Below are positions 1,016-30,900 of a stretch of 64,000 bases of DNA, piece by piece. This stretch comes from Candidula unifasciata. Lineage: Eukaryota; Mollusca; Gastropoda; Stylommatophora; Geomitridae. The stretch covers positions 1,006,001-1,070,000 of the forward strand of contig CAJHNH020002557.1 in the NCBI GenBank assembly GCA_905116865.2, in the 5' to 3' direction. Position 1 is the stretch's first letter, and each line of letters starts with the position of its first letter. The notes below the pieces were generated by a model. It saw nothing but the letters and a program-made list of their open reading frames with translations. It was not told the origin of the DNA and made no database searches. The position numbers and the translations under genes were made by a program.

Positions 1016-4000
1016 CTGAATGTCAAACAAAGTAATAGAGTGGTTCTTAAACTGTTAACATAGTTAACTGTTAATTAATCCGTGTGGATTCTACAGCCCT
1101 ATTGTGGGGAAAATAAGAACAGACTCACCGCCTCATCAAAACAAGCAAGTTGTAGCAGTCGACTAATTGGGAGCATCTTTCGAATGTACACTCAAAACTC
1201 AGGCCTTGGCAAAAAAGTTAAAGTCCAAATAGACAAATAACCAGGACTTTCTGGTAGAGCTTACAGCCGGTGAGCAAAGAAAGGGAAAAAAAAACTGTTT
1301 AACTGATTAATCTATTTGTCTTCTTTACATCTTCTGCTGCAGCTTCTCTCCTCCTCATGTCTTTTCTTCTCCTGGTTGCAGTGTAACTATTCTTTGCTTT
1401 CCTCATGGACCCTAGTAACACATGAGCACTCCACAGGGTGAGCACCAACATTATTCATCTGACAGCATAATCATATGTACAGATCTCGTCTAAGTAGTTC
1501 AACACTGTGCTAGTGTGGGCGGTGTGTACAAACTACAGAACATGTCCTGCAAGAATGTTCCTTGTAAGAAAAGAACACTGGTCCAGTGAGTCAATACTGT
1601 ACTAAAAGTTATAGAGAATTAAAAGAGAACTCCTAACAGTCAAGTTTATCACAAGACCTTGTCTGTTGGTGTCAGAAAGCGATCCAAGAAGAAGAAAACA
1701 CACGGGCAGTTGCTAGATGTTATGTGTTATGCTATGTTACCACAATTGATGTCACTGCAGGGTGGATGTCAGCTTGGTCCTCCAATGCAGCAAACACTCC
1801 AAGGTACCTCTACTGACTGTTCCCATAAGTGGCTGCTTATAATGTCACCTATCTTGGCCTCAAAGGTGGCACAGACGTGCTTCCCTATGCTTTAATCCCA
1901 TGTCATGCAACTATGTTAGTGTCAGAGATTTCCCATTATCCATGAACTTAGTAGACACAGTGTTGATTATATCTGCCCTATCCATGCTTCTTCTCCCATG
2001 TGTTGATGCATTGCTTGCCAGTTCATCTGCTCATTCCCTACCTTTCATCTTGGCAGGCCCAGGTGTATAGATCCAGGTGAGGGAGGTTAAGTGCGATTTC
2101 CAAATGCTTTCTAACCATTCAGAGCATGTATTACCTGTTGCAAGTTTCTGAAACATGTCCATGGAGTCAAACATAAATACTGCATGTGTGGCTGCTGGTT
2201 CTGCCACCCATGCCACTGCTCTGCAAGCAGCTGTTATCTCCACTGTCCATGGTGGCTAGATGCTTGCTGGTCTAAAGGTCCTGGGTTCAGACCTGCATCA
2301 AGGTGGATTTTAAACTGATCTGGGCTCCAAAGTTGACCCAGCCAGAAATTGTTACTGGCAAATGTCCCAAAAGTTGAGCAGCCATCAACTTACATCCACC
2401 ACTGCATTTACAACATGACCAGATATACACAGCCACTTGCGTTGATTCAATTCTATGGCTCCCACACCTTCATTCCTTGCAGACTTCACGTGTCTCATCC
2501 AAGGGCTAAACATAGAATGATTTATGGTCTTCTCACACTTCCAATCACACATTAAATCCCACAAATAATCACAGTAACGTTAAGTTCTTGTCGTGTCTAA
2601 CGCCAGACATGCTAACCCCCATGATTGTCTTTCCTTGTGGCTTGTGGGGTGTATTGCAACCAATCTCCACTGTGAAGACAGCATACAATTAATATTGACA
2701 CAAAGCTGCAAGGTTCCTTTGCACTCCAAGGAAGAAGTGAAAAGGCAAAACAAAAAGATATTTGTTTCAAGTTAGAAGAGGCAAGATAAATGCCATAATT
2801 AAATTGTATCTATTTGCAAAATTATTCTGAAGTCATCTGATGTCTTTGTTTTCACAACTAACTTAATTTTTTTTTAAACTGCTTTAACAAACAAAACATT
2901 AAAACAAACAAAACCAAAACTGGTTTTCCCAATTAGAGAGAACACCTTGTCATGCAAGAACCATACAAGGCATGTACCAAAAAGGGAGCGGGACGTCCTG
3001 CAAATGGAACTTAGACCAAGAAAAATATGGCAAGACAATATCAGAGAAACACTACAACAGTATAATGTGTCTATGGCTCAGGTCGCTAGAACAGCAAGAA
3101 GTAGAGCCTTATATCTCCCTCAACATCCAAAGCAGCAAAACAGCAAGAAGTAGAGCCTTTTATCTCCCTCAACATCCAAAGCAGCAAAACAGCAAGTGAA
3201 GAAAAATAAGAAAAGATGAAGATTTACCTGCATGACTTCATCCTTAGCGTTCACCAGAACTTGCTTCTGCTCCTCAATCTGCTCATCCAGCTGCCTTAAC
3301 TTGTCACTATTCTGCCACAAAAGCTCTCGCCTGGCAAGATGTAGAGCCTCAATTTCTGCTGCCTTCTGTCGCTCCCAAACCTCCAGTTCTGACTCTATCC
3401 TGGCCACTTCTTCCTGCTGGCGCTCAGCAAAGTTTTTCTCTTCTTCTTCAAGTAATTTCCGGGCTTCGGCCAACTGCTGGGTTTCGGCTTCACACTCAAG
3501 TTTCTCTTGAACGCTGGAGAAACTTCTAGAAATATACAATCAGAAGAATTATATGAAGATAAGCATTGATAAGACAGAGGTAATGGTAATAGGAAGACAA
3601 GAAGAAACCATATCAATTAAAGTAAATAACAAAAAAATAAAACAAACAAGCAAATTTAAACATCTAGCGTCATTTTTCACATCAGGTGGAAAAATGGATG
3701 GAGAAATCAATACACGATGTGTGAAAGCAAGTCAGGTAATGGGACAGTTAACACCACTTCTGACCCATAGAAAGATACCTTTGTCAACCAAAGCAAATCT
3801 AATAAGAACAGATTTTTGGCCGACATTGTGCTACCAGTGCCAAACATGGACCCTTACTACATCTAACGAGCGGAAGATCATAACAGTAGAGATGAGATGT
3901 CTTATGAGAGCTGCCGGTGTGACAAGAAAAGATAAAAATCAAGAATGAAGTAATTAGAAGACAAGGACTGAAACCAGTCATATAATTAATTAAAGAACAA

Positions 4001-7000
4001 CAAATGAAATGGTTTGGCCACCTGACGAGAATGTCCTGGTACAGAGAGCCACACTGAAAAAATATAATGAACACAGAGCAAGCGGGAAGACCACACAAGA
4101 GATGGAGCGACACCATCAGGAGCAACCTAATCAGAGGCATTTTCAGATTTGCCATCTATTCTTCGCTTGCAACATTCACTGTATGGAAAAACATCACAGA
4201 AACTGAAAATTCAGTAGCCAGACTATTTAATACATTCTGGCCAAAAAATGTTTTGTAAACCAACACTTCATGCTGTCCAACTCCATATATCACATTATAT
4301 AGGCTCAGTTTTTCTGCTTTTTTTGCTTTGGGTACGAAAACAGCCAGTAGTATCAACTATGTATCTCATAAACAGGTCGCTATAGATGTTAGAAAAGTGG
4401 CATTTATGGGGAATTGGACCTGACCTAAAGTGTCAGTTTTGTGGTTTCTTGGGGTAAAGGGGTTAAATTATTAGCATTTTACCCTATATAGGGTTCTAGT
4501 CTTGTGATTTACTGCTTCCTCTCAATAATGAAAAAAAATAATCATACAATGATTGTAAGCCGGCTACTGTCTTAGTGGGGTGCACAGCGGCTAATACTGT
4601 CGCCCGTTGACCTAGTGGTAATGGGTATGTATCTCTTCTGGGGCAATTCTGAAAACCCTGATCTGGGTAAGAGGAGCAGAACAGAGGACAGCCAGCATAA
4701 AGATGGGCATGGGACACAAGAGAAATCTTCGGCAAGAGTGTGCCTGAGGCGGGAAAGCTGGCAAGAAACCAGTTTCTTTCAAGCATGCAGTTACGGAAGC
4801 GATATTGTGTGAAGGACCAGCTGCCTGTAAATGATAAGTTTTATTTTATCACCATGGTAAGCTAGTGGGAAAACCCCACTATATTACAGTGATGCCGGAG
4901 ACATGACATATGAACTCAGAGACCTCTCCCTGATCAACATACCCTTACCCCACTATATTACAGTGATGCCGGAGACATGACACATAAACTCTCTCCCTGA
5001 TCAACCTACCCTTACCCCACTATATTACAGTGACACCCGGAGACATGACACATAAACTCTCTCCCTGATCAACCTACCCTTACCCCACTATATTACAGTG
5101 ATGCGGGAGACATGACATATGAACTCTCTCCCTGATCAACCTACCCTTACCCCACTATATTACAGTGATGCGGGAGACATGACATATGAACTCAGAGACC
5201 TCTCCCTGATCAACATACCCTTACCCCACTATATTACAGTGATGCGGGAGACATGACACATAAACTCTCTCCCTGATCAACCTACCCTTACCCCACTATA
5301 TACAAGTGATGCGGGAGACATGACATATGAACTCTCTCACTGATCAACCTACCCTTACCCCACTATATTACAGTGATGCGGGAGACATGACATATGAACT
5401 CAGAGACCTCTCCCTGATCAACATACCCTTACCCCACTATATTACAGTGATGCGGGAGACATGACATATGAACTCTCTCCCTGATCAACCTACCCTTACC
5501 CCACTATATTACAGTGACGCCGGAGACATGACACATAAACTCTCTCCCTGATCACCTACCCTTACCCCACTATATTACAGTGATGCCGGAGACATGACAC
5601 ATAAACTCTCTCCCTGATCACCTACCCTTACCCCACTATATTACAGTGATGCCGGAGACATGACATATGTACTCAGAGACCTCTCCCTGATCACCTACCC
5701 TTACCCCACTATATTACAGTGACGCCGGAGACATGACACATAAACTCTCTCCCTGATCACCTACCCTTACCCCACTATATTACAGTGATGCGGGAGACAT
5801 GACATATGAACTCAGAGACCTCTCCCTGATCACCTACCCTTACCCCACTATATTACAGTGACGCCGGAGACATGACACATAAACTCTCTCCCTAATCACC
5901 TACCCTCACCCCACTATATTACAGTGATGCGGGAGACATGACATATGAACTCAGAGACCTCTCCCTGATCACCTAACCTCACCCCACTATATTTCAGTGA
6001 TGCGGGAGACATGACATATGAACTCAGAGACCTCTCCCTGATCACCTACCCTTACCCCACTATATTACAGTGATGCGGGAGACATGACACATAAACTCAG
6101 AGACCTCTCCCTGATCACCTACCCTTACCCCACTATATTACAGTGATGCGGGAGACATGACACATAAACTCAGAGACCTCTCCCTGATCACCTACCCTTA
6201 CCCCACTATATTACAGTGATGCGGGAGACATGACATATAAACTCAGAGACCTCTCCCTGATCACCTACCCTTACCCCACTATATTACAGTGATGCGGGAG
6301 ACATGACACATAAACTCAGAGACCTCTCCCTGATCACCTACCCTTACCCCACTATATTACAGTGATGCGGGAGACATGACACATAAACTCAGAGACCTCT
6401 CCCTAATCACCTACCCTTACCCCACTATATTACAGTGATGCGGGAGACATGACATATGAACTCAGAGACCTCTCCCTAATCACCTACCCTTACCCCACTA
6501 TATTACAGTGACGCGGGAGACATGACACATAAACTCAGAGACCTCTCCCTAATCACCTACCCTTACCCCACTATATTACAGTGATGCGGGAGACATGACA
6601 CATAAACTCTCTCCCTGATCAACCTACCCTTACCCCACTATATTACAGTGATGCGGGAGACATGACACATAAACTCAGAGACCTCTCCCTAATCACCTAC
6701 CCTTACCCCACTATATTACAGTGATGCGGGAGACATGACATATAAACTCAGAGACCTCTCCCTAATCACCTACCCTTACCCCACTATATTACAGTGATGC
6801 GGGAGACATGACATATAAACTCAGAGACCTCTCCCTAATCACCTACCCTTACCCCACTATATTACAGTGATGCGGGAGACATGACATATAAACTCAGAGA
6901 CCTCTCCCTAATCACCTACCCTTACCCCACTATATTACAGTGATGCCGGAGACATGACACATAAACTCAGAGATCTCTCCCTAATCACCTACCCTTACCC

Positions 7001-10000
7001 CACTATATTACAGTGATGCCGGAGACATGACATATAAACTCAGAGACCTCTCCCTAATCACCTACCCTTACCCCACTATATTACAGTGACGCAGGAGACA
7101 TGACACATAAACTCAGAGACCTCTCCCTAATCACCTACCCTTACCCCACTATATTACAGTGACGCCGGGAGACATGACACATAAACCCAGAGACCTCTCC
7201 CTAATCACCTACCCTTACCCCACTATATTACAGTGATGCGGGAGACATGACACATAAACTCAGAGACCTCTCCCTAATCACCTACCCTTACCCCACTATA
7301 TTACAGTGATGCGGGAGACATGACATATAAACTCAGAGACCTCTCCCTAATCACATACCCTTACCCCACTATATTACAGTGATGCGGGAGACATGACATA
7401 TAAACTCAGAGACCTCTCCTTAATCACCTACCCTTACCCCACTATATTACAGTGATGCGGGAGACATGACATATAAACTCAGAGACCTCTCCCTAATCAC
7501 CTACCCTTACCCCACTATATTACAGTGATGCCGGAGACATGACACATAAACTCAGAGACCTCTCCCTAATCACCTACCCTTACCCCACTATATTACAGTG
7601 ATGCCGGAGACATGACATATAAACTCAGAGACCTCTCCCTAATCACCTACCCTTACCCCACTATATTACAGTGACGCAGGAGACATGACACATAAACTCA
7701 GAGACCTCTCCCTAATCACCTACCCTTACCCCACTATATTACAGTGACGCCGGGAGACATGACACATAAACTCAGAGACCTCTCCCTAATCACCTACCCT
7801 TACCCCACTATATTACAGTGATGCGGGAGACATGACATATAAACTCAGAGACCTCTCCCTAATCACCTACCCTTACCCCACTATATTACAGTGATGCGGG
7901 AGACATGACATATAAACTCAGAGACCTCTCCCTAATCACCTACCCTTACCCCACTATATTACAGTGACACGGGAGACATGACACATAAACTCAGAGACCT
8001 CTCCCTAATCACCTACCATTACCCCACTATAATACAGTGACGCGGGAGACATGACATATGAACTCAGAGACCTCTCCCTGATCAACCTACCCTCACCCCA
8101 CTATATTACAGTGATGACGGAGACATGACATATAAACTCAGAGACCTCTCCCTGATCACCTACCCTCACCCCACTATATTACAGTGATGCCGGAGACATG
8201 ACATATGAACTCAGAGACCTCTCCCTGATCACCTACCCTCACCCCACTATATTACAGTGATGCCGGAGACATGACATATGAACTCAGAGACCTCTCCCTG
8301 ATGACCTACCCTCACCCCACTATATTACAGTGATGCGGGAGACATGACATTTAAACTCAGAGACCTCTCCCTGATCACCTACCCTCACCCCACTATATTA
8401 GAGTGATGCCGGAGACATGACACATAAACTCTCTCCCTGATCAACCTACCCTTACCCCACTATATTACAGTGATGCGGGAGACATGACACATAAACTCTC
8501 TCCCTGATCAACCTACCCTTACCCCACTATATTACACTGATGCGGGAGACATGACACATAAACTCTCTCCCTGATCACCTACCCTCACCCCACTATATTA
8601 CACTGATGCGGGAGACATGACACATAAACTCTCTCCCTGATCACCTACCCTTACCCCACTATATTACACTGATGCGGGAGACATGACACATAAACTCTCT
8701 CCCTGATCACCTACCCTTACCCCACTATATTACAGTGATGCCGGAGACATGACATATGAACTCAGAGACCTCTCCCTGATCACCTACCCTCACCCCACTA
8801 TATTACAGTGATGCGGGAGACATGACATTTAAACTCAGAGACCTCTCCCTGATCACCTACCCTCACCCCACTATATTAGAGTGATGCCGGAGACATGACA
8901 CATAAACTCTCTCCCTGATCAACCTACCCTTACCCCACTATATTACAGTGATGCGGGAGACATGACACATAAACTCTCTCCCTGATCAACCTACCCTTAC
9001 CCCACTATATTACACTGATGCGGGAGACATGACACATAAACTCTCTCCCTGATCACCTACCCTTACCCCACTATATTACACTGATGCGGGAGACATGACC
9101 CATATCTCTCTCCCTGATCAACCTACTCTCACCCCACTATATTAGAGTGATGCCGGAGACATGACACATAAACTCTCTCCCTGATCACCTACCCTTACCC
9201 CACTATATTACACTGATGCGGGAGACATGACACATAAACTCAGAGACCTCTCCCTGATCACCTACCCTTACCCCACTATATTACAGTGATGCGGGAGACA
9301 TGACACATAAACTCTCTCCCTGATCAACCTACCCTTACCCCACTATATTACAGTGATGCGGGAGACATGACACATAAACTCTCTCCCTGATCAACCTACC
9401 CTTACCCCACTATATTACAGTGATGCGGGAGACATGACACATAAACTCAGAGACCTCTCCCTGATCACCTACCCTTACCCCACTATATTACAGTGATGCG
9501 GGAGACATGACACATAAACTCTCTCCCTGATCCACCTACCCTTACCCCACTATATTACAGTGATGCGGGAGACATGACACATAAACTCTCTCCCTGATCA
9601 ACCTACCCTTACCCCACTATATTACAGTGATGCGGGAGACATGACACATAAACTCAGAGACCTCTCCCTGATCACCTACCCTTACCCCACTATATTACAG
9701 TGATGCGGGAGACATGACATATAAACTCAGAGACCTCTCCCTAATCACCTACCCTTACCCCACTATATTACAGTGATGCCGGGAGACATGACATATAAAC
9801 TCAGAGACCTCTCCCTAATCACCTACCCTTACCCCACTATATTACAGTGATGCGGGAGACATGACACATAAACTCAGAGACCTCTCCCTAATCACCTACC
9901 CTTACCCCACTATATTACAGTGATGCGGGAGACATGACACATAAACTCTCTCCCTGATCAACCTACCCTTACCCCACTATATTACAGTGATGCGAGAGAC

Positions 10001-13000
10001 ATGACATATAAACTCAGAGACCTCTCCCTGATCACCTACCCTCACCCCACTATATTACAGTGACGTGGGAGACATGACACATAAACTCAGAGACCTCTCC
10101 CTAATCACCTACCCTTTCTGCATCTTCCTCTTCACCCTGGCTTCATTCTCTCCCAGATCATGCCAAGCCTCCTCTATCCTGCTTGTATGTTCATTCAGCT
10201 CGTCCAACACCACCTTCCACTGAGCATTCTTCTCCTCGCTGGCCACCTCGTGCTGGGCCAGGAGGTCCTCCTCTCTGAGGGCCAAATCCTGGACTTCATG
10301 AAGGATGTTCTCACTGGAAGCCAATAGGTCCTTCTTCTCCATCTCATACTGTGACTTTAAAGTCTCCAGTTTCTCTACTTCTGTGGCAACTTTCTCCTGA
10401 AGCTGTGGATGATATAAGTAGTAAAGTGAACAAGTAGCCATCCTGAGACTCCACAAGGGACATAACAGGCTTTAACACCACTTGTGCGTCTTCTTCTTCT
10501 TCTTACCATTCACTGGCTGTAAACTTTAGTGGAAAGTTCTGGCTGTTCGTCCACTTCTGGACTTTGGTCTTGTTCCAGAATCTAAGTGTTACATGCATAT
10601 CCATTTAACAGAAATGAATTTTTTGTCTGCAAACTGTTGGTTCCTTGCCTCTCAGGCAGATGCACTCTGACTTTGAAAGAAGCTCCCAGTCAGTTCACTC
10701 TTATGACCTGATAGTGAGGAGGCAGTCTGTCTATTCTTGTTTCCCTCGCAATAGGGTCCCAGAGTCCACACAGGAAAAGGACCCATCTGAAGCCACTGGT
10801 GCATTAGACATTTGGAGCTAGACCCATACTGACCTCATGCATGGCAGAGACAATTGTTCTGGTCTACACCTGCTCTATTTGAGGACAAACTCTACGGCAA
10901 ACTCCACATAACTGCTGTTGCTTTTTTGTTTTTGTTTTTGTTTATATAAATAAATTTGTGCTGTAGCCTGATAAGAGTAAAACGAAGATAATCTGGAAAG
11001 CAGCAGAAAGATTAGGACAAGTAACACAGAAAGCATTTGAAGAGAGAATACACATAAGGGACTCAAAAGTAAGTAAAGGATCATGTCCATACAAGTGATG
11101 CATTGGGCATATGGTGTTTGACTTATCTTTTTATTTTAAAATCGCCATTCAGTGGGTGATATCACAAACAACACCGGTCTGTCTTTACTTCCTATGACAA
11201 ATCCTGGGACATATTTCCAGTTGAGTTAATTTGGCAGTCAAACTAAATTTTGAACAGAAACACAAGTTAGACTCAATGTGGCTTTGAAACCCTAGACCTT
11301 TGGACCAGCAGGCAAGCATATAACCACTATGCTACTGTGACTCCCACTGATGGGTGGAAGAGAGAGGGAATAGGTGAGTGGATGGGCAGTTTCATGCCGG
11401 CCACTTTAACTTCCCATGACTTTTACCTGGTACCCAACCTAAGAGTCAATGTCATTTTTGAAAAAAGTCAGGCTCTATCAGGACCCAAACTTACGACCTT
11501 CCAATCCAAAAGCGAGCATCTAGCCACTACACCACAGCGGCCCCCAGATGGGCAGGAGAGAGAGGGAATAAGTGAGATGATAGATGGGAGGCAGTGATGA
11601 AATGGATGAGCGCATGAGTTGGGGAGAGAGAGCGATAAAGAATGAATGAATGCAAGGGTGGCAGAGAGAAAAAAATGGGTGATTGCATGGGTAGGAGAGA
11701 CAGAGATGGAATGGGGGAATTAGTAAGTAGATATGTGAGTGCATGGGGAGAGAGAGGGTACAGGGTGAGAGTAAGGATGGGAGAGGGGCTGGGTGAGTGC
11801 CCAGGTTGGAGAGAGAAGAAATGAGTGTGAGAATGTGTGCCTAATGCAAAACAAAATCACTTAAGGCTAATTCAATGCACCACAACAAGAGCAAGAGCAC
11901 TGTAACTTACGCTCTTCTCCTTATCCTCCAGCTGTAACCGGCTGCTTGTTGATGCCCTCCTGACTTGTTGAATCTGCTCATTCTTCTCAGTGATCTGTCG
12001 CTCCAGGTCGTGTATCACCTGAGAGATGGACTCCTCCTCTGTCACTTGGTCCGGGAACCAGGTCAGGTTCTCTATTTCCTGTGGATGTGAGATTTGTGAA
12101 CATCTTATCCCAATGACAACAATCATATTATCCACCTATGTGGTGGGTTCAAATCCACAGGTAGCCAGATTTTTCTTCTTCATTTTTGACCTTGACCCCA
12201 AGAAGACCTAGCCGTAAACAGGTACCAGGTAAAGACCTGGGAAGTCCTGCATGATGGTGACTGCATCACTTATCAAGGGTTGACTGATCTATACAAAAAT
12301 GAGTCTAACCTGATACCCCCAAGACGACCTAGCCTTAAACAGGTACCAGGTAAAGACCTGGGAAGTCTGGCGTGATGGTGACCGCATCACCTATCAAGGG
12401 TTGACTGATCTATACAAAAATGAGTCTAACCTGATACCCCCAAGACGACCTAGCCTTAAACAGGTACCAGGTAAAGTCCTGGGAAGTCTGGCGTGATGGT
12501 GACCGCATCACCTATCCAGGGTTGACTGATCTATACAAATATGAGTCTAACCTGATACCCCCAAGACGACATAGCCTTAAACAGGTACCAGGTAAAGTCC
12601 TGGGAAGTCTGGCGTGATGGTGACCGCATCACTTATAAAATGTTGACTGATCTATACAAATATGAGTCTAACCTGATACCTCCGATGGGCGACTGGCTTG
12701 TAAGGGACCTTCACTTTTTTCTTTGCTCTTCTTCTCCTCCTCCTCTTCCTCCTCTTCTATTTTTATTCTACTTCTCTCAAATCTTCTTCTGCCTTTCTTC
12801 TCCCTATAGAGCACAGACCGTCAACCCAAACAACTCACACATAGCTTTTAGCAGACGTGTTCATGACTAGTTCACTTCTGAGACTAGTATTCAAGAGGAA
12901 CTATTGGAACAACACCTATAATTAAGTTCATTGAAAAAACAAACACTGAAATGGTTTGGTCATATAATGGGAATGAATTCAATGATGCCAGCAACGAAAG

Positions 13001-16000
13001 CTTACAACATGAAGGTAGAAACACCAAGAGGTAGAGGGGTGACCAAGAAGAAGATAGATTGAAGGAGTCACTGATATCTTGAGACTTCACAATATCACAG
13101 TGTTCCGGGCAACTGGGTGTACCATAGCTTGGAAACCTAACATTTGTTAACCTGCAACACCCAGCAGCACAACACAGAAAATGGACAAAAGAAACACAAA
13201 AGAAAGATTCTACAGGAGGGGCTGGCCAAATGGTTCAGAATGCTGGGATCTCATGCTGGAAACAGGTTCAAATCCTCAGTAACATCAGGGATTTTTCTGC
13301 TGGGGACAAAAATAATTTCGTAACCTGCAAAGTCTGTGCCGACTGTACTAGCCATGCAGTCCTAAAATCCTCAGACTCAAAGACCACCACCCCCCCCCCC
13401 CCCCCTTTTCCTCACACACTGCAAAAGTGGTATATTCATCATGCAGTTCTTTAGGAAAAGGTAGTCTGTACTCAAGTCGACTCAAACACCATGTATGTTA
13501 GGAAACAGTGTTACTCTTCCATGCTTCTTCACTGCTTCCTATGTTGGGCCTGTAACTCGCAGGTATTGTATGTATACCAGGTTATGACATATGACACTGG
13601 GATGACTGGTTCTCTTTCTTATATTTTTATGTACACACACATAACATGGTACAATTCAATACAATGAAAAGGACGAATAAACTGTGAGCCCTATGTGACG
13701 GATAACGGCACAACAGGAGAATGAAGATGAGGTGGTAATTCAAATCCATACCAGGACAGATTTTTGTACAATTTGCAGGCAAAATTCAAGTTGTGGAACA
13801 AGACCAAAGTCCAGCGCCAGTTAATGCTAAGAATACTGAGCCAAAACTGATTTTAGCTCCCAGTTGACTACTCTAAATTTTATACCAGGATATGTGATTG
13901 CAAGTCAAGCTAACTGCTGTGACACGGACATCACCCATCAAGTGTGAGAAGGTCTATAATACAAACTTGTTATCTAGCTTCATATGTCTGTAGTCACCGT
14001 GGCGCAGCGGCTAGATGCTCGCGTGCGGATCGGAAGGTCGTGGGTTGGCTTCCTGACAGAGCCGGACTTTTATTCAAAAATGACCTTGACTCCCAGGTCG
14101 AGTGGGTACCGGGTGCAGTCCCGGGAAGTAAAGGTGGCCGGCATGATGCTGACCACATCACCCATCTTGTGCCGATTGGTCTATACAAATATAGGTCTAG
14201 CCCTATATGCCCTATACACCTAAATGGCGTGGAAAACGGACCTTTACTTTTTTAGCATATGTCTGCTGCAGCATGACACTAAAAAGGTCCTTTACTCTTA
14301 TAAAATAATATGCTTATATGGACACAAACAGACCAAATGACTCAGAATAGACAATAACTAGATGACTCAGGGGAGACAATGACGAGCTGACTCAGGGCAC
14401 AAAATAAGTTTTTGACTCAGGACAGCAAATGGCCAGATGACTCAGGACAGACACTGGCCTTCTGACTCAGAACACAAAATGACTAGCTGACTCAGGACAA
14501 TGACCAGCTGACTCAGGACAGACAATGGCCGGATGACTCAGGACAATGGCCGGATGACTCAGGACAGACAATAGCCAGATGACTGAGGACAGACAATAGC
14601 CAGATGACTGAGGACAGACAATAACCAGATGATGCAGGACAGACAATAGCTCGATGATACAGGACAGACAATAGCCAGATGACTCAGGACAGACAATGGC
14701 AACATGACTCAGGACAATGGCCGGATGACTCAGGACAGACAATGGCCAGATGACTGAGGACAAACAATAGCCAGATGATGCAGGACAGACAATAGCTCGA
14801 TGATACAGGACAGACAATAGCCAGATGACTCAGGACAGACAATAGCCAGATGGTGCAGGACAGACAATAGCCAGATGGTGCAGGACAGACAATAGCCTGT
14901 TGATGCAGGACAGACAATAGCCTGATGGTGCAGGACAGACAATAGCCAGATGACTCAGGACAGACAATAGCCTGATGACTCAGGACAGACAATAGCCCGA
15001 TGGTGCAAGACAGACAATAGCCTGATGGTGCAGGACAGACAACAGCCTGATGGTGCAGGACAGACAATAGCCCGATGATACATGACAGACAATAGCCCGA
15101 TGATACAGGACAGACAATAGTCAGATGACTGAGGACAGACAATAGCCCGATGGTGCAGGACAGACAATAGCCAGATGGTGCAGGACAGACAATAACCAGA
15201 TGATACAGGACAGACAATAGCCAGATGGTACAGGACAGATGATAGCCAGATGACAGGACAGACAATGACCAGCTGACTCAGGACAGAAAATGACCAGATG
15301 TCTTGTGACAAACTGTGCAGCCTACCTCGAGCAAGTTCTCCTTTGAGATTCTGAGATCCTCCAACAGCTCCTCTTCCTGTCTGTCCAGCTGCCTTAAGCC
15401 ATCCACGATGCTGTTGTACGGGTTTTTCTGCCAACAGTCAGCGCAAATATTAAATATATGGCTTGACAATATATCAGATGCTTGGCAATATATCAGATAT
15501 CAACTATTAGTACACACAGACAGAATCTTAAATTCAAAAATCAACTTAATATATTTGGTACGGCCATCTAGTGAGGAATGTAGCCAGACCAACAACATAT
15601 GAGAGTCTACAGCAGAACATATGGGAGGAAAGCGAGAGCAAGGCCAAGAAAGAGACGGATAAACAGTGTAGCTGAAACTTGCAGAAACATGAACAAATCC
15701 ATTACCCAAACCACCCGAGAAGCGTAAGATAAATATAGAAAAACCACGACACTGGGCTTAACCTGGTATCAGCCTGGCTCGCTAGCGCAGTTGGTTAAAA
15801 CCCTTTGCGCGGCAACCTGGTGACGACTCCTTGTGGTCCAGGTTCACCCCTGGGGGTAGGAAGAAAAGGCACATTGCTCCCATATTTACGATACCTATCA
15901 TGGAATCAAGGCCGAAGAGTTGTGATATCCATTGTACCAAGCCAAAAGGTTTACAACTCATGGTTTCTGGATACTTTAAAAAAAAAAAACCTGGTATCAG

Positions 16001-19000
16001 TGAGACGATCAAAGAAAAGAACTATATAATGTCTGTATCTCCACCATGGCCAGTCTAAAGCGCAGGTGAGCAAGGAGGTGAGTCAGGCATGGGGCCAGCT
16101 CTCCCAGCCTGTAAGAATTAATCTGCTACAGAAACAAGGACAATCAAGAGAAACTCTAAAATGAACTCTGGTAAGAGATGCCAAAGGTGTTGGAATCTAT
16201 TCCATCAATGATATCAAAACAACTGCACAGGACAGAACAGAATAAAGGACTAGAGTACAAGCACTATGTGACGTATACTGGCAGGACAGAACAGAATAAA
16301 GGACTAGAGTACAAGCACTGGCAGGACAGAACAGAATAAAGGACTAGAGTACAAGCACTGGCAGGACAGAACAGAATAAAGGACTAGAGTATAAGCACTA
16401 TGTGACGTATACTGGCAGGACAGAACAGAATAAAGGACTAGAGTACAAGCACTATGTGACGTATACTGGCAGGACAGAACAGAATAAAGGACTAGAGTAC
16501 AAGCACTGGCAGGACAGAACAGAATAAAGGACTAGAGTATAAGCACTATGTGACGTATACTGGCAGGACAGAACAGAATAAAGGACTAGAGTACAAGCAC
16601 TGGCAGGACAGAACAGAATAAAGGACTAGAGTACAAGCACTATATGACGTATACTGGCAGGACAGAACAGAATAAAGGACTAGAGTACAAGCACTATATG
16701 ACGTATACTGGCAGGACAGAACAGAATAAAGGACTAGAGTACAAGCACTATATGACGTATACTGGCAGGACAGAACAGAATAAAGGACTAGAGTACAAGC
16801 ACTATATGACGTATACTGGCCGGACAGAACAGAATAAAGGACTAGAGTACAAGCACTATATGACGTATACTGCCAGGACAGAACAAAATAAAGGACTAGA
16901 GTACAAGCACTATGTGACGTATACTGGCAGGACAGAACAGAATAAAGGACTAGAGTATAAGCACTATATGACGTATACTGGCAGGACAGAACAAAATAAA
17001 GGACTAGAGTACAAGCACTATGTGACGTATACTGGCAGGACAGAACAGAATAAAGGACTAGAGTATAAGCACTATATGACGTATACTGGCAGGACAGAAC
17101 AGAATAAAGGACTAGAGTACAAGCACTATGTGACGTATACTGCCAGGACAGAACAAAATAAAGGACTAGAGTATAAGCACTATATGACGTATACTGGCAG
17201 GACAGAACAGAATAAAGGACTAGAGTACAAGCACTACGTGACGTATACTGGCAGGACAGAACAGAATAAAGGACTAGAGTACAAGCACTACGTGACGTAT
17301 ACTGGCAGGACAGAACAGAATAAAGGACTAGAGTACAAGCACTACGTGACGTATACTGGCAGGACAGAACAGAATAAAGGACTAGAGTACAAGCACTACG
17401 TGACGTATACTGGCAGGACAGAACAAAATAAAGGACTAGAGTACAAGCACTACGTGACGTATACTGGCAGGACAGAACAGAATAAAGGACTAGAGTACAA
17501 GCATTATGTGACGTATACTGGCAGGACAGAACAGAATAAAGGACTAGAGTATAAGCACTATATGACGTATACTGGCAGGACAGAACAAAATAAAGGACTA
17601 GAGTACAAGCACTATATGACATATACTGGCAGGACAGAACAAAATAAAGGACTAGAGTACAAGCACTATATGACGTATACTGGCAGGACAGAACAGAATA
17701 AAGGACTAGAGTACAAGCACTATGTGACGTATACTGGCAGGACAGAACAGAATAAAGGACTAGAGTACAAGCACTATATGACGTATACTGGCAGGACAGA
17801 ACAGAATGGAAGACAAGTGTGTAAGCAGTGTGTGACGTACATCAGCAGGACGGAATGATGATGATGATGATAGTCCTCTTAAAGAAAATTCACTTAGCCA
17901 TGGATTGGAAAGAATAATAGAGAAGGCATGGTACCAGAAAAAAGTTTAGCCATGGGATAAAGTACATCTGTTTCTGTAGTGAGATGCCTTCACCATATGA
18001 ATGAGTCAGGCTAAATTCCCTGTGTGATAACTAAAGCTTTTGATTTTTATGTTGTCTAGTGTGTCGTCCTATCTGTTCTTCTTTCCTCTACATCTATGAG
18101 TGTAAAACAACACATGTTAATTTGTTATCATGCTGTTACAAAAAAGTTACTTCAGTTCGCTTACCTTGATAAAAAGTTACTTAAGTACACTTAACCTGAG
18201 AAAAAGTTACTTCAGCCTACTGACCTTGATTAAAAAGTTACTTAAGTACACTAGTCCTGAGGAAAAAGTAACTTAAGTATGCTCACCTTGACAAACAGTT
18301 ATTTAAGTACACCTACCTTGACAAAAAGTTACTTCAGTTTGCTTACCTTGACAAAAAGTTACTGAAGTACGCTTCACCTGAGAAAAAGTTACTTCATTCA
18401 GTCTGATTACCTTGATAAAAAGTTACTTAAGTACACTTACCTTGATAAAAAGTTATTAAAGTATGCTTCACCTGAGAAAAAGTTACTTCAGTCTGCTTAC
18501 CTTGCTCCTGACGTACTCAATCTCCTCATTCAAATGCCTCAACTTCTCCATATAATTCTCCAGTTCTTCCTTGATCTGTTCTTCTTCTGCTTGCCGCTCT
18601 TTCTCCCTCTCTGTGTACCTGTTCTCCAGATCCATGATCTCCAGCCTGCAAACATACATACAAACTCTGAAGCACTATTGAGACACACATCGATGAGCGG
18701 GTCGCCCATTGGCTCGCCGGAAGACGACTTTGTCGCCGGTCGGGGCAGTATTTGGGTCTGTCTCCTTTGATCGCATCAAAACTGCAAGAGTCGTTTTCAG
18801 GGCTCTTGGTGGCGTGCAAAGCTAAGCCATTTTGTATGGTGCACATAACCTGGTCACAATTATAACCTAAAGCTCTCCCTTCAGGAATGCTGGTTGAACA
18901 TGGCAGTTTTTTCTCCAGCAAAGTAGTTACCTACCTACCACTGGCGAGAATCCAAGTGACTGTATATCAGAACATAAATGTATAAGACTTCTGGTCAATA

Positions 19001-21993: not shown

Positions 21994-24900
21994 GTGTGTA
22001 TTTGTGCATGAGTGCCTGCTTGTCTGGATGCATATCTGTCTGCTCCTAATGCATATATGAAACTCACAAGGATCCATTCAGCGCCAAGCTCTCGTTGGAG
22101 CGGTACAGATCAGACATGGACTGGCTCAGCAGGCTCAGACGAGGGGAGATCATGCTGTTGTGTTCCCCCTGGGGTAAGCTCAGAGCTGACACAGACTGCA
22201 GAACAAATGTTACATCTTACATCCAGTTAGTGCAGACACAGACTGCAGAACAAATGTTACATCTTACATCCTGTTAACTCATTTAACAGAAACCTTAGCT
22301 TTGGTGTTTACTTAAAATGTTAAACACTATAGTCCAATTAGCATACATCTGAGAAGCCACATCGGGACGGGTTCAAATTCCTGAATAGGAACATTTTTTA
22401 ATGGCTCCATGGTCACCTTGCTGCCGTGGCGTATCAGCTAGGCGATCGCCTGCAGATCCAAATGTCATGGGTTTAGGTTCTTTCTTTTAAAAAAAATGAC
22501 CTTGGCTCACAAGTCAACCCAGCCTTAAATGAGTACCTGGTAAAGTCCTAGGAAGTAAAGGTGGCTGGCACAATATTGTCTACATCACCCATCGAGTGCT
22601 GATAGGTCTATAAAATATAGGTCTAGCCCTTTATGTTTAATAAGCCTGAAGGCGTGAAAAAGGGCATCTACCCTGCACTTTAAGGAAGTATATCGGTCTT
22701 ATCTCTCTCTACATCCTAGGGTAGAAGTACAAGACTACAAGGTCTTATTTCCCTCTACATCCTAAGGTATAAGTACGAGACTACAAGCTCTTATCTTTCT
22801 CTACATCCTAAGGTATAAGTACAAGACTACAAGCTCTTATCTCCCTCTACATCCTGGGGTAGAAGTACAAGATTACAAGGTCTTATCTCCCTCTACATCC
22901 TAGGGTAGAAGTACAAGACTACATAGTCTTATTTCCCTCTACATCCTAGGGTAGAAGTACAAGACTACAAGGTCTTATTTCCCTCTACATCCTAAGGTAG
23001 AAGTACAAGACTACAAGCTCTTATCTTTCTCTACATCCTAAGGTAGAAGTACAAAATTACAAGGTCTGATTTCCCTCTACATCCTAAGGTAGAAGTACAA
23101 GACTACAAGATCTTATTTCCCTCTACATCCTAGAAGTACAAGATTACAAGGTCTTATTTCCCTCTACATCCTAGGGTAGAAGTACAAGACTACAAGATCT
23201 TATTTCCCTCTACATCCTAAGGTAGAAGTACAAGACTACAAGCTCTTATCTTCTTCTTCTTCTTTCGTTCGCATGAAATAAATTGTCTATATCTGCAAAG
23301 CTGTCTCTAGTATGAATTTCACTGTCTTTTGTAATTCACTAAGCGGCCCGTAAAGTTTGACTTCCACAAGTGTCTCTTTTGGCCAAAGGTTTTGCCTGAA
23401 AGCGTTGAATCTGGGACAGTCTTGAAGGATGTGATCTGTTGTTTCAGGTGCCAGTCCACAAGTACACATGGCTGATTGGCCAATCTTAAATTTGTTGTAC
23501 ATGTGGGAGCGAAGTCGATTGTGCCCTGTTCTAAGGCGAAGGATAATGACTTGCTCTGGTCTGTCCATAATATGGTAATCATCTTGTGCCAGTTTCGGTG
23601 GCATTCTGATTGATTTGATCATTCTCTTCTTCTGTGGATAAGAGACTGGTATGTTAGGTTGTTCTTCAGTTGCACCTTCCTTAGCTAGTTTATCAGCTTT
23701 TTCGTTTCCGGGAACTCCACAGTGGGAAGGTATCCACTGCATTACTAATTTACAGCGGTTGCCTAGTTCGGATAATAGTGTCCGTATGCTTGGTAATTTT
23801 CCAGACTGAAGTGACTGAACAAGCTCTTATCTTTCTCTACATCCTAAGGTAGAAGTACAAGACTACAAGCTCTTATCTTTCTCTACATCCTAAGGTAGAA
23901 GTACAAGACTACAAGGTCTTATTTTCCTTTAAATCCTAGGGTAGAAGTACAAGACTACAAGATCTTATTTCCCTCTACATCCTAGGGTAGAAGTACAAGA
24001 CTACAAGATCTTATTTCCCTCTACATCCTGGGGTAGAAGTACAAGACTGCAAGATCTTATTTCCCTCTACATCCTAGGGTAGAAGTACAAGACTACGAGG
24101 TCTTATTTCCCTCTACATCCTAGGGTAGAAGTACAAGACTACGAGGTCTTATTTCCCTCTACATCTTAGGGTAGAAGTACAAGACTACAAGATCTTATTT
24201 CCCTCTACATCCTAGGGTAGAAGTACAAGACTACAAGATCTTATTTCCCTCTACATCCTAGGGTAGAAGTACAAGACTGCAAGGTCTTATTTCCCTCTAC
24301 ATCCTAGGGTAGAAGTACAAGACTACAAGGTCTTATTTCCCTCCACATCCTGGGGTAGAAGAACAAGACTACAAAGTCTTATTTCTCTCTACATCCTAGG
24401 GTAGAAGTACAAGACTACAAGATCTTATTTCTCTCTACATCCTAGGGTAGAAGAACAAGACTACAAGGTCTTATTTTCCTCTACATCCTAGGGTAGAAGT
24501 ACAAGACTACAAGATCTTATTTCCCTCTACATCCTAGGGTAGAAGTACAAGATTACAAGATCTTATTTCTCTCTACATCCTAGGGTAGAAGTACAAGACT
24601 ACAAAATCTTATTTCCCTCTACATCCTAGGGTAGAAGTACAAGACTACAAGATCTTATTTCTCTCTACATCCTAGGGTAGAAGTACAAGACTACAAGGTC
24701 TTATTTCCTCCACATCCTAGGGTAGAAGTACAAGACTACAAGGTCTTATTTTCCTCTACATCCTAGGGTAGAAGTACAAGCCTACAAGGTCTTATTTCCC
24801 TCTACATCTTAGGGTAGAAGTACAAGCCTACAAGGTCATTTCCCTCTACATCTTAGGGTAGAAGTACAAGCCTACAAGGTCTTATTTCCCTCTACAGCCT

Positions 24901-27900
24901 TGGGTAGAAGTACAAAACTACAAGGTCTTATTTCCCTCTACATCCTAGGGTGCTAGTACAAGACTACAAGGTCTTATTTCCCTCTACATCCAAGGGTAGA
25001 AGTACAAGACTACAAGGTCTTATTTCCCTCTACATCCGAAGGTACAAGTTCTAGATTACAAGGTCTTATTTCTCTCTACATCCCAGGGTAGAAGTACAAG
25101 ACTACAAGGTCTTATTTCCCTCTACATCCTAGGGTAGAAGTACAAGACTACAAGATCTTATTTCCCTCTACAGCCTTGGGTAGAAGTACAAGACTACAAG
25201 GTCTTATTTTCCTCTACATCCTAGGGTAGAAGTACAAGACTACAAGGTCTTATTTCCCTCTACATCCTAGGGTAGAAGTACAAGACCTTATTTCCCTCTC
25301 CATCCTAGGGTATAAGTACAAGACTACAAGGTCTTATTCTCCTCTACATCCTAGGGTAGAAGTACAAGATTAAAAGGTGTTATTTCCCTCTAAATTAAGA
25401 TACCATAACAGTAAACATATTTCATTTTATCAACTTTTTTCCATTTACTGACTAACCTTTCTGACCTGCATAGACTTTTTCATTTCCCGGGCCTCTTCTG
25501 GATTGTTGTACCGGTACACATTGGTCTGACCCAGCGTGATCAGCATGCCTGTTTGCATGAACACAGAAAATAAAAACAATGCTAGAACTATTATTGATTG
25601 TCCAGTTAATAACTGCAAGTACTGACTACAGTAAATGCTATCAAATTAACATTTATGACTATTTGTATTAATCTACTAATTTTAAATGCTCTCAGTTTAC
25701 TAGATGCTCAGTCTCCAAAGGCTCAGGAGGCTGTGTTACACCTGGAGAGTGGATGATGGTAGAGTCCCATTTTCTAGGTTAATTACAGACGGTTAGAAGA
25801 TGTCAACACTGACCTCTGCTACAATATAAAGATGTGTGCAAATAAGAATTAAAGATATAGGTATCTAGGTAGATTTATGGGAACAAAATGCTCAGGACTT
25901 GGCTGCATAGAGGGGGGGGGGGGGGGGGGAGAAATCAGGAATCAATAGGGAATGACAGAATAAATTATTGCAGATAGGTGATCACTGAGCGTCTGAGAAG
26001 AATCACACTAAATGTTTGTGATGTCAACAACGGCAGTGAAATCTCATGATCTAATTGTGGAAGACTTTTCTTAACGATGGCAGTTCTTGCTAGTCGCACT
26101 CGCCATCACCATGGGCTGTCAGTCCCATGCATCCCCACATCACAATATAACACTATCCTCTGCAATGACAAAAAGGTGCCAACATTACTTTTTTTTTTAA
26201 TAACTACATTTCATAGGCACAATTTGTGAAGGCGAGAATGAATGCATCATGACAATGGGAAAGTCAGAGGGAAAGACAGGCAGAGGAAGACCAAGAGAAA
26301 AGATTTGAGACTGTTTGGCATCATGACATGGAAGAAGATCCGCATCGAATATAACTGACAGAACATGGGACAGCAGGCTGTGGACATACATGTTTACTAA
26401 TACACTTTAGCTTGAACTACAGAAACATTGCACAATGTAGAAGAACTACCCACTGGATGATTATTGGGGGAGGGGGGGGGGGGGGACAGACTTACTGCCC
26501 CAAAACAAGTAGGTCATAAAAGTTGACTAATTAATTAGGGTTTTGCCGAAACTGGATGTGAGAGCTGAAAGGTGCAAATATTGCAGCCTTGCTGTAAACC
26601 ACAACACATCATGCCAAACACCATTGAGAGGGTGAACATGAAAGAAGGATATGAAGAATAACAAACAATGATAATATTGATGATGATGACAACGATGAAG
26701 AAGAAGAAGAAGATGATGATGAATAATTTGCTCAGCTGTTCCTACCCTGAGTCAGTCTGGTTGGTTCCTTCACCACCTGCCCGTTGATAGCACACAAGGA
26801 ACCCTCGATGGGATGAAGGACAACCACACCATCTTTATGTTCTATGACACAATGCTCTGGTTCCACATTAGCTCCAGAAATGGCTGCAGAAGAAGGTAAT
26901 TACGTTTTATTATATCAGCATGTTCTGGTTACAGAAGTGTACATATTTAAATTCTCCTAGTGGGTTCTGGGGCTCATAAGGGGTGGGGGGTGGGTTAAAA
27001 TAAGGGGGGGGGGAGTACACTCGCTGCCTCCCTAACAAGCATGTCATTAGATTCAACTAAGTAGGGGTTTTCTTCAAAGTCAAAGTGCATATACCTGAGA
27101 GGTAAGGAACCAGCAGTCTGCATACTCACAAGCTGGATCTGTAAGAAGGGATGTGCACACAGATCTCAAGTTCTAAAGCAAGACTACAGTTCAGAAGTGG
27201 ATGAACAACCAGGACTTTCCATCAGAGAACAGCTTGTGAACATGATGATGATGATGAAGAAGAAGATATGTTTTAAAATGATGAATGGTCTATCTCCAGA
27301 AGTGGCTGCAGAGGAGGGTGATCAAAGTTTCAATACACTGGGCATGTTCTGACCCTGCTTGTATCAACAGTTATAAGATCAAGAAGACAACAATACACTG
27401 GGCATGTTCTGACCTGGCTTGTATCAACAGTTATAAGAACAAGAAGACAGCAATACACTGGGCATGTTCTGACCATGCTTGTATCAACAGTTATAAGAAC
27501 AAGAAGACAACAATACACTGGCCATGTTCTGACCTTGCTTGTATGAACAGTTATAAGAACAAGAAGACAACAATACACTGGCCATGTTCTGACCTGGCTT
27601 GTATCAACAGTTATAAGAACAAGAAGACAACAATACACTGGGTATGTTGTGACCTGGCTTGTATCAACAGTTATAAGAACAAGAAGACAACAATACACTG
27701 GCCATGTTCTGACCTTGCTTGTATGAACAGTTATAAGAACAAGAAGACAACAATACACTGGGCATGTTCTGATCTTGCTTGTATCAACAGTTATAAGAAC
27801 AAGGAGACAGCAATACACTGGCCATGTTCTGACCTTGCTTGTATCAACAGTTATAAGAACAAGAAGACAACAATCCCTTTGGCATGTTCTGACCTGGCTT

Positions 27901-30900
27901 GTATCAACAGTTATAAGAACAAGAAGACAACAATACACTGGCCATGTTCTGACCTTGCTTGTATCAACAGTTATAAGAACAAGGAGACAGCAATACACTG
28001 GCCATGTTCTGACCTTGCTTGTATCAACAGTTATAAGAACAAGAAGACAACAATCCCTTTGGCATGTTCTGACCATGCTTGTATCAACAGTTATAAGAAC
28101 AAGAAGACAACAATACACTGGCCATGTTCTGACCTTGCTTGTATCAACAGTTATAAGAACAAGGAGACAGCAATACACTGGCCATGTTCTGACCTTGCTT
28201 GTATCAACAGTTATAAGAACAAGAAGACAACAATCCCTTTGGCATGTTCTGACCATGCTTGTATCAACAGTTATAAGAACAAGAAGACAGCAATACACTG
28301 GGCATGTTCTGACCTTGCTTGTATCAACAGTTATAAAAACAAGGAGACAGCAATCCCTTTGGCATGTTCTGACCTGGCTTGTATCAACAGTTATAAGAAC
28401 AAGAAGACAACAATACACTGGCATGTTGTGACCTGGCTTGTATCAACAGTTATAAGAACAAGAAGACAACAATACACTGGCCATGTTCTGACCTGGCTTG
28501 AATCAACAGTTATAAGAACAAGAAGACAACAATACACTGGCCATGTTCTGACCATGCTTGTATCAACAGTTATAAGAACAAGAAGACAACAATACACTGG
28601 GTATGTTGTGACCTGGCTTGTATCAACAGTTATAAGAACAAGAAGACAACAATACACTGGGTATGTTGTGACCTGGCTTGTATCAACAGTTATAAGAACA
28701 AGAAGACAACAATACACTGGGTATGTTGTGACCTGGCTTGTATCAACAGTTATAAGAACAAGAAGACAACAATACACTGGGTATGTTGTGACCAGGCTTG
28801 TATCAACAGTTATAAGAACAAGAAGACAACAATATACTGGCATGTTGTGACCTGGCTTGTATCAACAGTTATAAGAACAAGAAGACAACAATACACTGGC
28901 ATGTTGTGACCTGGCTTGTATCAACAGTTATAAGAACAAGAAGACAACAATACACTGGGTATGTTGTGACCTGCCTTGTATCAACAGTTATAAGAATAAG
29001 AAGACAACAATACACTGGCATGTTGTGACCTGCCTTGTATCAACAGTTATAAGAACAAGAAGACAACAATACACTGGGCATGTTGTGACCTGGCTTGTAT
29101 CAACAGTTATAAGAACAAGAAGACAACAATACACTGGACATGTTGTGACCTGGCTCGTATCAACAGTTATAAGAACAAGAAGACAACAATACACTGGGCA
29201 TGGCCACATCTTGAGGAGAAGCAAGCAGAGAACCATTCTACAGGTACTAAAATGGGAAACAAATGTATGATTTTTTTTTTCAGAGTGGTGGTATACAAGA
29301 GAAGCTCTAAAATAAATGTTTTTAACAGATGTTCAAGCCCTAAGTGTTGTATAACGGAACCATAAGATGATGGTGATGATGATGGTCTGATGTTCTGGCT
29401 TCAAATTTGGCAACAAAAGATTTTACAGTAGTGATAGTTTTTTTTTTGCAGTGAGTGAGTGAGTGAGTGAGTAAGTGAGTGAGTGAGCAAGCGAGCAAGC
29501 GAGTGAGTGAGTGAGTGAGTAAGTGAGTGAGTGAGTGAGTGAATGAGCGAGCTTGCGTAATGCCACACAATGGCAACATACCATGAACAGGAGTGAGTCA
29601 GTGAGTGAGGCAGATGTGTTTGTGTGTGTATGTGCGTGAGAGAGAGTGTGTGTGTGTGTGTGTTAGCATCAGTATATGTTTGAAATAATGTTTGTGTATG
29701 TGTGTGATATGTTAAATATAAACAATAAAAGACTGTGTGTGAAAAAGAGCATATATTGGTGCAGTAGTGTAAAAGAGAACCAAAAAATGCAACACAACTC
29801 AGAATACAGTGGATCGGTAAGCATGATGTGATTTCAATGCGATCTAAAGACACACACACACAAATTTGTCACACAAAATCAAAACCAGACACAATAACTA
29901 CAAAAATGAGAACTCACTGATGTCCTGAGGTTCATCAGACTCATCAGAACCAATCTTGGTGATGCCCTCCTGTAACAAACGTGGTCATGAGAAGCTCTGT
30001 CATTTTACTATCACTTCAGAGACACAGTAAGTTCACATTTCAATATGGCTGGATACAAGGCTGCTAGCTGTGGTATGTGTGGCTCAGGGGCTTAGTTGTG
30101 GGTGATCAATCGACCGATCAGATTATCCTTATGAGGCTGCCATCTAAAAGTTTGCCATACCATCCTGAGATTTTTTTTTTTTTTTTTTAGCATTCACTAA
30201 ACTCTGTTGGAAAGTTCTGGTTGTATGTCCACTTCTAGACTTTGGTCTCTTCCACAACTTGAATATAGCACATATGGTTTAGAGATCTATTTATTTGTAT
30301 GCAGACTGTTGGTTCCCCACCCCTCAAACAGATGCGCTCCGACTTTAGAGGAACAAATCCCTAATAAGTCGCCTTTTATGATATGCTTGATAGATAGTTA
30401 ATCAGTTTATTCTTTGTCTTCCCCCAAAATGGGGCTCCGGAACTCAAATGGGAAATCCTGAGATTTAAAAAAAATCTCAGTCTGGATGGCAGACCAACAA
30501 GGCAGATTCCAGATACCCTGTGCAACCTCAAAAGAGTTATAGTTAGGGCATTCATAGTGGCTGCACCAGACGTGATGAGTTTAGAGTTATTTACAGCAGT
30601 GTTCTGACAGCCACTTCAGGTGGCTTCATCATCATTATATAATGACAGTGATAATGACAGTGATAATGACAGTGATAATGACAGAGATGATGACAGTGAT
30701 AATGACAGTGATGATGACAGTCATAATGACAGTGATAATGACAGTGATAATGACAGAGATGATGACAGTGATGATGACAGTCATAATGACAGTGAGGATG
30801 ACAGTCACAATGACAGTGAGGATGACAGTCACAATGACAGTGAGGATGACAGTCACAATGACAGTCACAATGACAGTGATGATGACAGTCATAATGACAG

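Follow-up and report, generated by a model that had tools for sequence, protein, structure and literature searches.

The KIF16B locus

The window analyzed here, a stretch of 64,000 nucleotides from the snail Candidula unifasciata (GenBank assembly GCA_905116865.2, contig CAJHNH020002557.1, positions 1,006,001 to 1,070,000), carries on its minus strand the kinesin gene KIF16B, in which two tandem arrays span a 5′ splice site (donor). A protein search with the joined exons of the window scored the best 7,988 candidates and gave seven matches. The top match, P0001, is the KIF16B prediction for Candidula unifasciata itself (3.6e-192, 95% identity to our rough exon joining) and contains kinesin motor, FHA and PX domains above the Pfam cut-offs; the other matches come from Bradybaena (79% identity), Aplysia (47%), Biomphalaria, Bulinus, Babylonia and, weakly, Haliotis. 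In a tblastn search of the window, P0001 matched exons 23 and 24 in every residue, and its mismatches in other exons lay mostly at the ends of matched stretches, where splice junctions fall. The exon numbered 23 in a preliminary description of this DNA is indeed the 23rd of the 25 exons placed in the window; because the start-codon exon, sought by exact words, was not found in the window, exon 23 is probably the 24th of the complete gene. The features around this exon are as follows, a slash marking the splice junction.

10113..10402, minus strand: exon 23 (window numbering) of KIF16B, 290 nt, LQEKVATEV...KRKMQKG, 97/97 residues identical to P0001
10107..10116, minus strand: real 5′ splice site AAGG/GTAGGT, first copy in array 1, placed by the P0001 junction KRKMQKG/SFSS, the aligned junctions of P0002 and P0003, and the frame and stop
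4873..10116, minus strand: donor-spanning tandem array 1, 74 whole units, mean pairwise identity 0.90
3526..10112, minus strand: intron 23, 6587 nt, with 5240 of them in array 1
3228..3525, minus strand: exon 24 (window numbering), acceptor TTTCTAG/A AGT TTC, 101/101 residues matched by P0001 from 3524 to 3222

The residues at the exon 23–24 junction read KRKMQKG/SFSSVQEKL in P0001, KRKLHKG/NFSSAQEKL in Bradybaena and KARLQNG/GFSSAQEKL in Aplysia, and these protein junctions identify the donor as AAAGG/GTAGGT joined to TTTCTAG/A. The final K-G of exon 23 is common to Candidula and Bradybaena, and the G is also found in Aplysia and Babylonia. At exon 24, the match to P0001 extends two codons beyond the exon end. 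The exon offers a pair of in-frame acceptors separated by 12 nt (3513..3525, TTTCTAG/AAGTTTCTCCAG/C), of which P0001 takes the upstream one.

Array 1 is continuous with exon 23

The 5.2-kb satellite that had been described at this exon occupies 5244 bases, fully covered by units, and its 74 whole units fall within the 70–75 estimated earlier. Most units are 73 nt long (41 units), the remainder being 67 nt (15 units), 66 nt (10 units), 74 nt (7 units) or 68 nt (1 unit); the 26 units of 66–68 nt lack a 7-nt stretch. In sequence, 44 of the 74 units are distinct. Unit 1 begins AAGGGTAGGTGATTAGGG... at +10116 and the final base of exon 23 is +10113, so that exon and array share AAGG, the final four bases of the exon. 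Thus, the array touches the exon without a gap and includes four exon bases, both as previously claimed. At the far end, the final unit ends GGGGT and is followed by the unrelated sequence TTTCCCACTAGC; counting units from exon 23 to unique intron leaves no remainder.

The preliminary description had assigned a common motif to every unit. In its exact 18-nt form, AAGGGTAGGTGATYAGGG, the motif occurs only 40 times, unit 1 included, and the part of the claim that stands is the exact 9-nt donor, present in 66 of the 73 downstream units. The units that lack the exact 18-mer have an extra T after AGGT, a G replacing the first A, or other changes. All 40 exact copies in the window fall within array 1, and none appeared in 100 shuffles of the sequence. 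A search of viral contigs with the array 1 satellite word gave 0 matches. Large block duplications within the array were considered and rejected, as the longest run of identical units is 3 (none of 4 or more), a length also attained in 500 shuffles.

The exon 23 donor faces 66 identical sites

To score potential donors, we built a matrix from the remaining 24 donors of the gene. The real exon 23 donor scores 8.98, within a range of 1.3 to 13.6 for the donors of this gene. Array 1 contains 696 GT sites, of which 66 tie with the real donor and none scores higher; they correspond to the exact AGG/GTAGGT of the 66 downstream units, and the expectation that the donor faces dozens of copies of itself is thereby borne out. 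The second donor-like site noted in the units is GGG/GTAAGG, which occurs 60 times and is weaker than the real donor, both in score (6.65 vs 8.98) and in pairing with U1 (−9.7 vs −10.5 kcal/mol). The frame after the real donor reads GGG TAG, placing a stop at the second extra codon, as had been predicted for the use of a downstream copy; any downstream donor, if used, would therefore truncate KIF16B in its coiled coil.

The decoy donors look neither purged nor specially kept, because the intactness of the donor 9-mer ranks only 13th among the 65 windows of the array 1 unit. As this value is not unusual, we discarded selection on the decoys as a signal. Experiments with duplicated splice sites have favored exon-proximal donors. 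The exon-proximal donor is most likely the one spliced at exon 23, judging by the predicted protein P0001, the junction in relatives, and reports on the so-called mirages of amphioxus, which are tandem repeats lying over exon–intron borders.

The locus thus provides a natural counterpart of the duplicated-splice-site experiments, in which one donor has to be chosen among 67 with nine identical bases, and the in-frame stop makes any error of choice readable. Calling it a natural test of competing donors was fair, and the case, being both large and clean, lends itself to the question of how splicing ranks identical sites; it is not without precedent, as the published accounts of amphioxus mirages and human IFI6, in the portions consulted, describe comparable situations.

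A second donor-spanning array at exon 20

The same anatomy recurs in KIF16B at the donor of exon 20.

18501..18645, minus strand: exon 20 (window numbering) of KIF16B, acceptor GTTTGCAG/GCTGG, end GGAGCAAG/GTAAGC, S-K at the junction in P0001–P0005
18138..18504, minus strand: donor-spanning array 2, 12 units of 30–34 nt, mean pairwise identity 0.75, first unit beginning 4 nt before the end of exon 20

The units of array 2 were cut by eye (the span given by Tandem Repeats Finder, TRF, is 18141..18504) and start with CAAGGT or CAGG. With a unit identity of 75% compared to 90% in array 1, array 2 is the older of the two. Because the S-K at the junction is common to P0001–P0005, the end of exon 20 looks, from these alignments, older than array 2 within heterobranch snails. 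Reading past the exon 20 donor leads to an in-frame TAA within the first unit. Of the 34 downstream GT sites, 5 score as high as the real donor or higher, the best being AAG/GTAAGT at 13.7, and nearness alone would therefore have to win there.

Origin of the arrays

From the anatomy observed at the border we infer, with a probability of roughly three in four, that array 1 arose by a duplication across the exon–intron border, was amplified in place, and has only its exon-proximal copy spliced. A single-copy stretch comprising the final four bases of exon 23 and roughly the first 69 bases of intron 23 would have been duplicated in tandem and then amplified to 74 copies through unequal exchange or slippage. 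Since the duplicated stretch would have spanned the donor, each copy would bear the 5′ splice site, whether exact or slightly altered. The spliceosome would use only the copy touching the exon, exon definition and exon nearness outweighing the identical sites downstream, and the downstream copies would be silent and drifting. This origin, already proposed in the preliminary description, is favored by the exon bases shared with the array, the whole-unit ends, the junction residues that are common to relatives and predate the array, and the repetition of the same anatomy at exon 20.

Several observations weigh against a border duplication with proximal splicing. The overlap with the exon comprises only four bases, and the single-copy ancestor of the unit is a reconstruction. 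K-G is missing from the exon 23 junction in Biomphalaria and Bulinus, S-K is missing from the exon 20 junction in Babylonia and Haliotis, and P0001 is itself a predicted protein. At exon 20, the donor is matched or outscored by downstream sites, as described above. The whole-unit ends tell less than they first suggest: of the 19 arrays examined in the window, 5 stop no more than 2 nt from a whole unit; the donor-spanning pair accounts for two of these, and the other 3 (of 17) carry no donor copies. These three arrays could speak for a different history, in which the array formed farther into the intron or was imported, exon 23 was later joined by a deletion to one of its units, and a donor-like site of that unit was adopted; tandem arrays abound in the window (58 TRF rows, 32 after merging), and the units contain several GT sites. 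Such a fusion would, however, also have to match AAGG, which encodes residues common to some relatives, and a similar coincidence would be required again at exon 20, so that we consider it unlikely.

With 66 identical donors at hand, downstream copies might be used at a real rate, as in IFI6, sending stop-containing transcripts to nonsense-mediated decay and making the array a leaky or regulated off-switch for KIF16B. We regard this as quite unlikely: if common, downstream use would truncate the coiled coil and should be selected against, and amphioxus mirages are reported to leave splicing undisturbed. Alternatively, the repeated donors could serve as a docking bank for U1, or as G-rich intronic enhancers, which aid splicing of the 6.6-kb intron or block premature polyadenylation. 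Although an RNA duplex estimate gives 49 sites a pairing with U1 equal to or stronger than that of the real donor, the donor copies are not exceptionally kept, given their rank among the unit's windows, and 23 of the 25 donors have no cluster of copies, which makes such a role very improbable. The least probable explanation is an assembly artefact affecting the copy number or the exon junction of array 1. According to the portions of the genome report consulted, the Candidula assembly was made with wtdbg2 from ~25.6x PacBio coverage (read N50 9.9 kb), and such an assembly can mis-size arrays; the 5.2-kb array is nevertheless shorter than the read N50, more than half of its units are distinct in sequence, and the units of array 2 are only 75% identical.

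Arrays cluster on the donor side of KIF16B introns

We scanned for near copies of each of the 25 donors in the 600 nt that follow it, taking the 14-nt donor word with up to 3 mismatches, and likewise examined the 25 acceptors. Exon 23 has 8 near copies, exon 20 has 6, one further donor has 1, and 22 have none; three acceptors have a single match each and no acceptor has a cluster. To examine the location of the arrays, the 58 TRF rows were merged by hand into 32, from which we removed 5 that lie outside the 24 introns and 6 microsatellites or pyrimidine tracts, leaving 21 arrays, in introns between positions 1018 and 59927 (one array with 2.2 copies and another with 2). Their positions were compared with 20,000 random placements within the same introns, with the last 40 nt barred and the end of intron 23 taken as 3525, one base off. 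Exon 5′ ends were derived from protein matches and may be off by 0–3 nt (about 8 nt for exon 6), which affects the acceptor distances and acceptor words and not the donor distances.

Eight of the 21 arrays start within 75 nt of a donor, where 1.33 are expected, and none of the 20,000 placements reaches 8; only 2 end within 75 nt of an acceptor (1.34 expected). Within 50 nt, there are 6 arrays at donors (0.90 expected) and 1 at acceptors (0.91 expected), and within 25 nt of a donor there are 3 (0.47 expected, P = 0.01). The excess persists when the donor-spanning pair is excluded, with 4 of 19 arrays within 50 nt (P = 0.005) and 6 of 19 within 75 nt (P = 0.0005), and also when at least 4 copies are required in addition (3 of 17 within 50 nt, P = 0.03; 5 of 17 within 75 nt, P = 0.002). 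Avoidance of acceptors alone would not generate a donor excess over random placement. The six other donor-proximal arrays are listed below.

14333..15300, minus strand: 25-nt array, starting 25 nt past the exon 21 donor
3090..3196, minus strand: 49-nt repeat with 2.2 copies, starting 31 nt past the exon 24 donor
52944..53572, minus strand: 48-nt array, starting 36 nt past the exon 3 donor
30642..31331, minus strand: 12-nt array, starting 47 nt past the exon 14 donor
59620..59875, minus strand: 37-nt array, starting 51 nt past the exon 1 donor (window numbering)
23819..25392, minus strand: 46-nt array, starting 64 nt past the exon 17 donor

None of these six arrays has donor copies in the 600 nt following its donor. 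Older copies hidden between donor and array were likewise rejected, as a one-unit flank matched no better than shuffled sequence (P = 0.21 to 1.00). Having neither donor copies nor decayed units, the six arrays therefore support clustering and not an origin from the donor. G-richness or R-loops as a common cause can be dismissed, because the GC skew differs across the donor-side arrays: on the sense strand it is +0.41 in array 1 and +0.15 in array 2 (GC content 0.33), and negative in two of the six others.

Donor-side clustering is the unexpected part of these results; it was found in one gene only and tested after the pattern was seen. A tentative extension, which we hold to be possible although the odds are against it, is that 5′ splice sites seed minisatellites in the snail lineage: some process linked to intron starts would duplicate donor-proximal DNA repeatedly, sometimes with the donor included, and introns would grow from the exon edge and fill with ignored decoy donors. 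Two arrays of different age in KIF16B, together with the clustering, suggest that minisatellites may arise preferentially at the starts of introns. If true, this would tie intron growth in large snail genomes to splice-site position.

Comparison with known systems

Amphioxus mirages are described for Adh3 (units of 10–72 bp), the globins BflGb6 and BflGb9 (units of ~150–160 bp for globins) and troponin C, PGBD5 having been compared with them, and normal mRNA is reported in the parts of these accounts consulted. Like them, both snail arrays span the boundary, with four exon bases in unit 1, and their copies carry the splice signal (66 of 73 exact 9-mers in array 1; 6 matches to the 14-nt donor word with up to 3 mismatches in array 2). 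The units are also minisatellite-sized, 66–74 nt and 30–34 nt, compared with the 10 to ~160 bp given for mirages. The snail arrays differ in that they lie in a mollusc gene and at donors only, whereas those described in amphioxus lie at both boundaries; in their 74 copies, as opposed to the 3 and 6 given for BflGb6; and in the co-occurrence of two of them within KIF16B, where further arrays cluster on the donor side. Mirage copy numbers are described as unstable between haplotypes or tissues; the snail counts come from a single assembled sequence. Classed from sequence alone, array 1 is of the mirage kind, which is known from lancelets and hence not new.

In human IFI6 (6-16, G1P3), a minisatellite likewise offers several splice donors (PMC4526556), and two downstream repeat units are reported to be used, whereas in the snail downstream use would meet TAG. 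The intron gain described in excerpts on potato RdRp (PMC4974935) resembles the snail case in its tandem duplication around a splice-like, AGGT-containing sequence; in the snail, an intron was lengthened and no new intron was seen. Among the matches listed by a full-text search of an open-licence library, judged by titles and the starts of abstracts, there was no mollusc case of a donor-spanning array. Microsatellites are discussed for Conus introns in the portion consulted (PMC3862624), and excerpts of PMC8496239, PMC3087553, PMC3902484, PMC12783039 and PMC4039745 served as further background.

Other features of the window

Three arrays in two introns (22695..23249, 23819..25392 and 55153..57105) have 46-nt consensus units that are alike by eye, which suggests a dispersed or transferred minisatellite family. 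Between two of them, a minus-strand fragment (23290..23826) matches RNase H (PF00075, 7.7e-6) and is perhaps a remnant of a long interspersed nuclear element (LINE). The 60-nt array at 27285..28850 contains, on the plus strand and antisense to KIF16B, an open frame of 521 codons, which is unsurprising because the unit length is divisible by three. The kinesin motor domain includes a 33-nt micro-exon, DDPGLIPRFCN, at 49462..49494.

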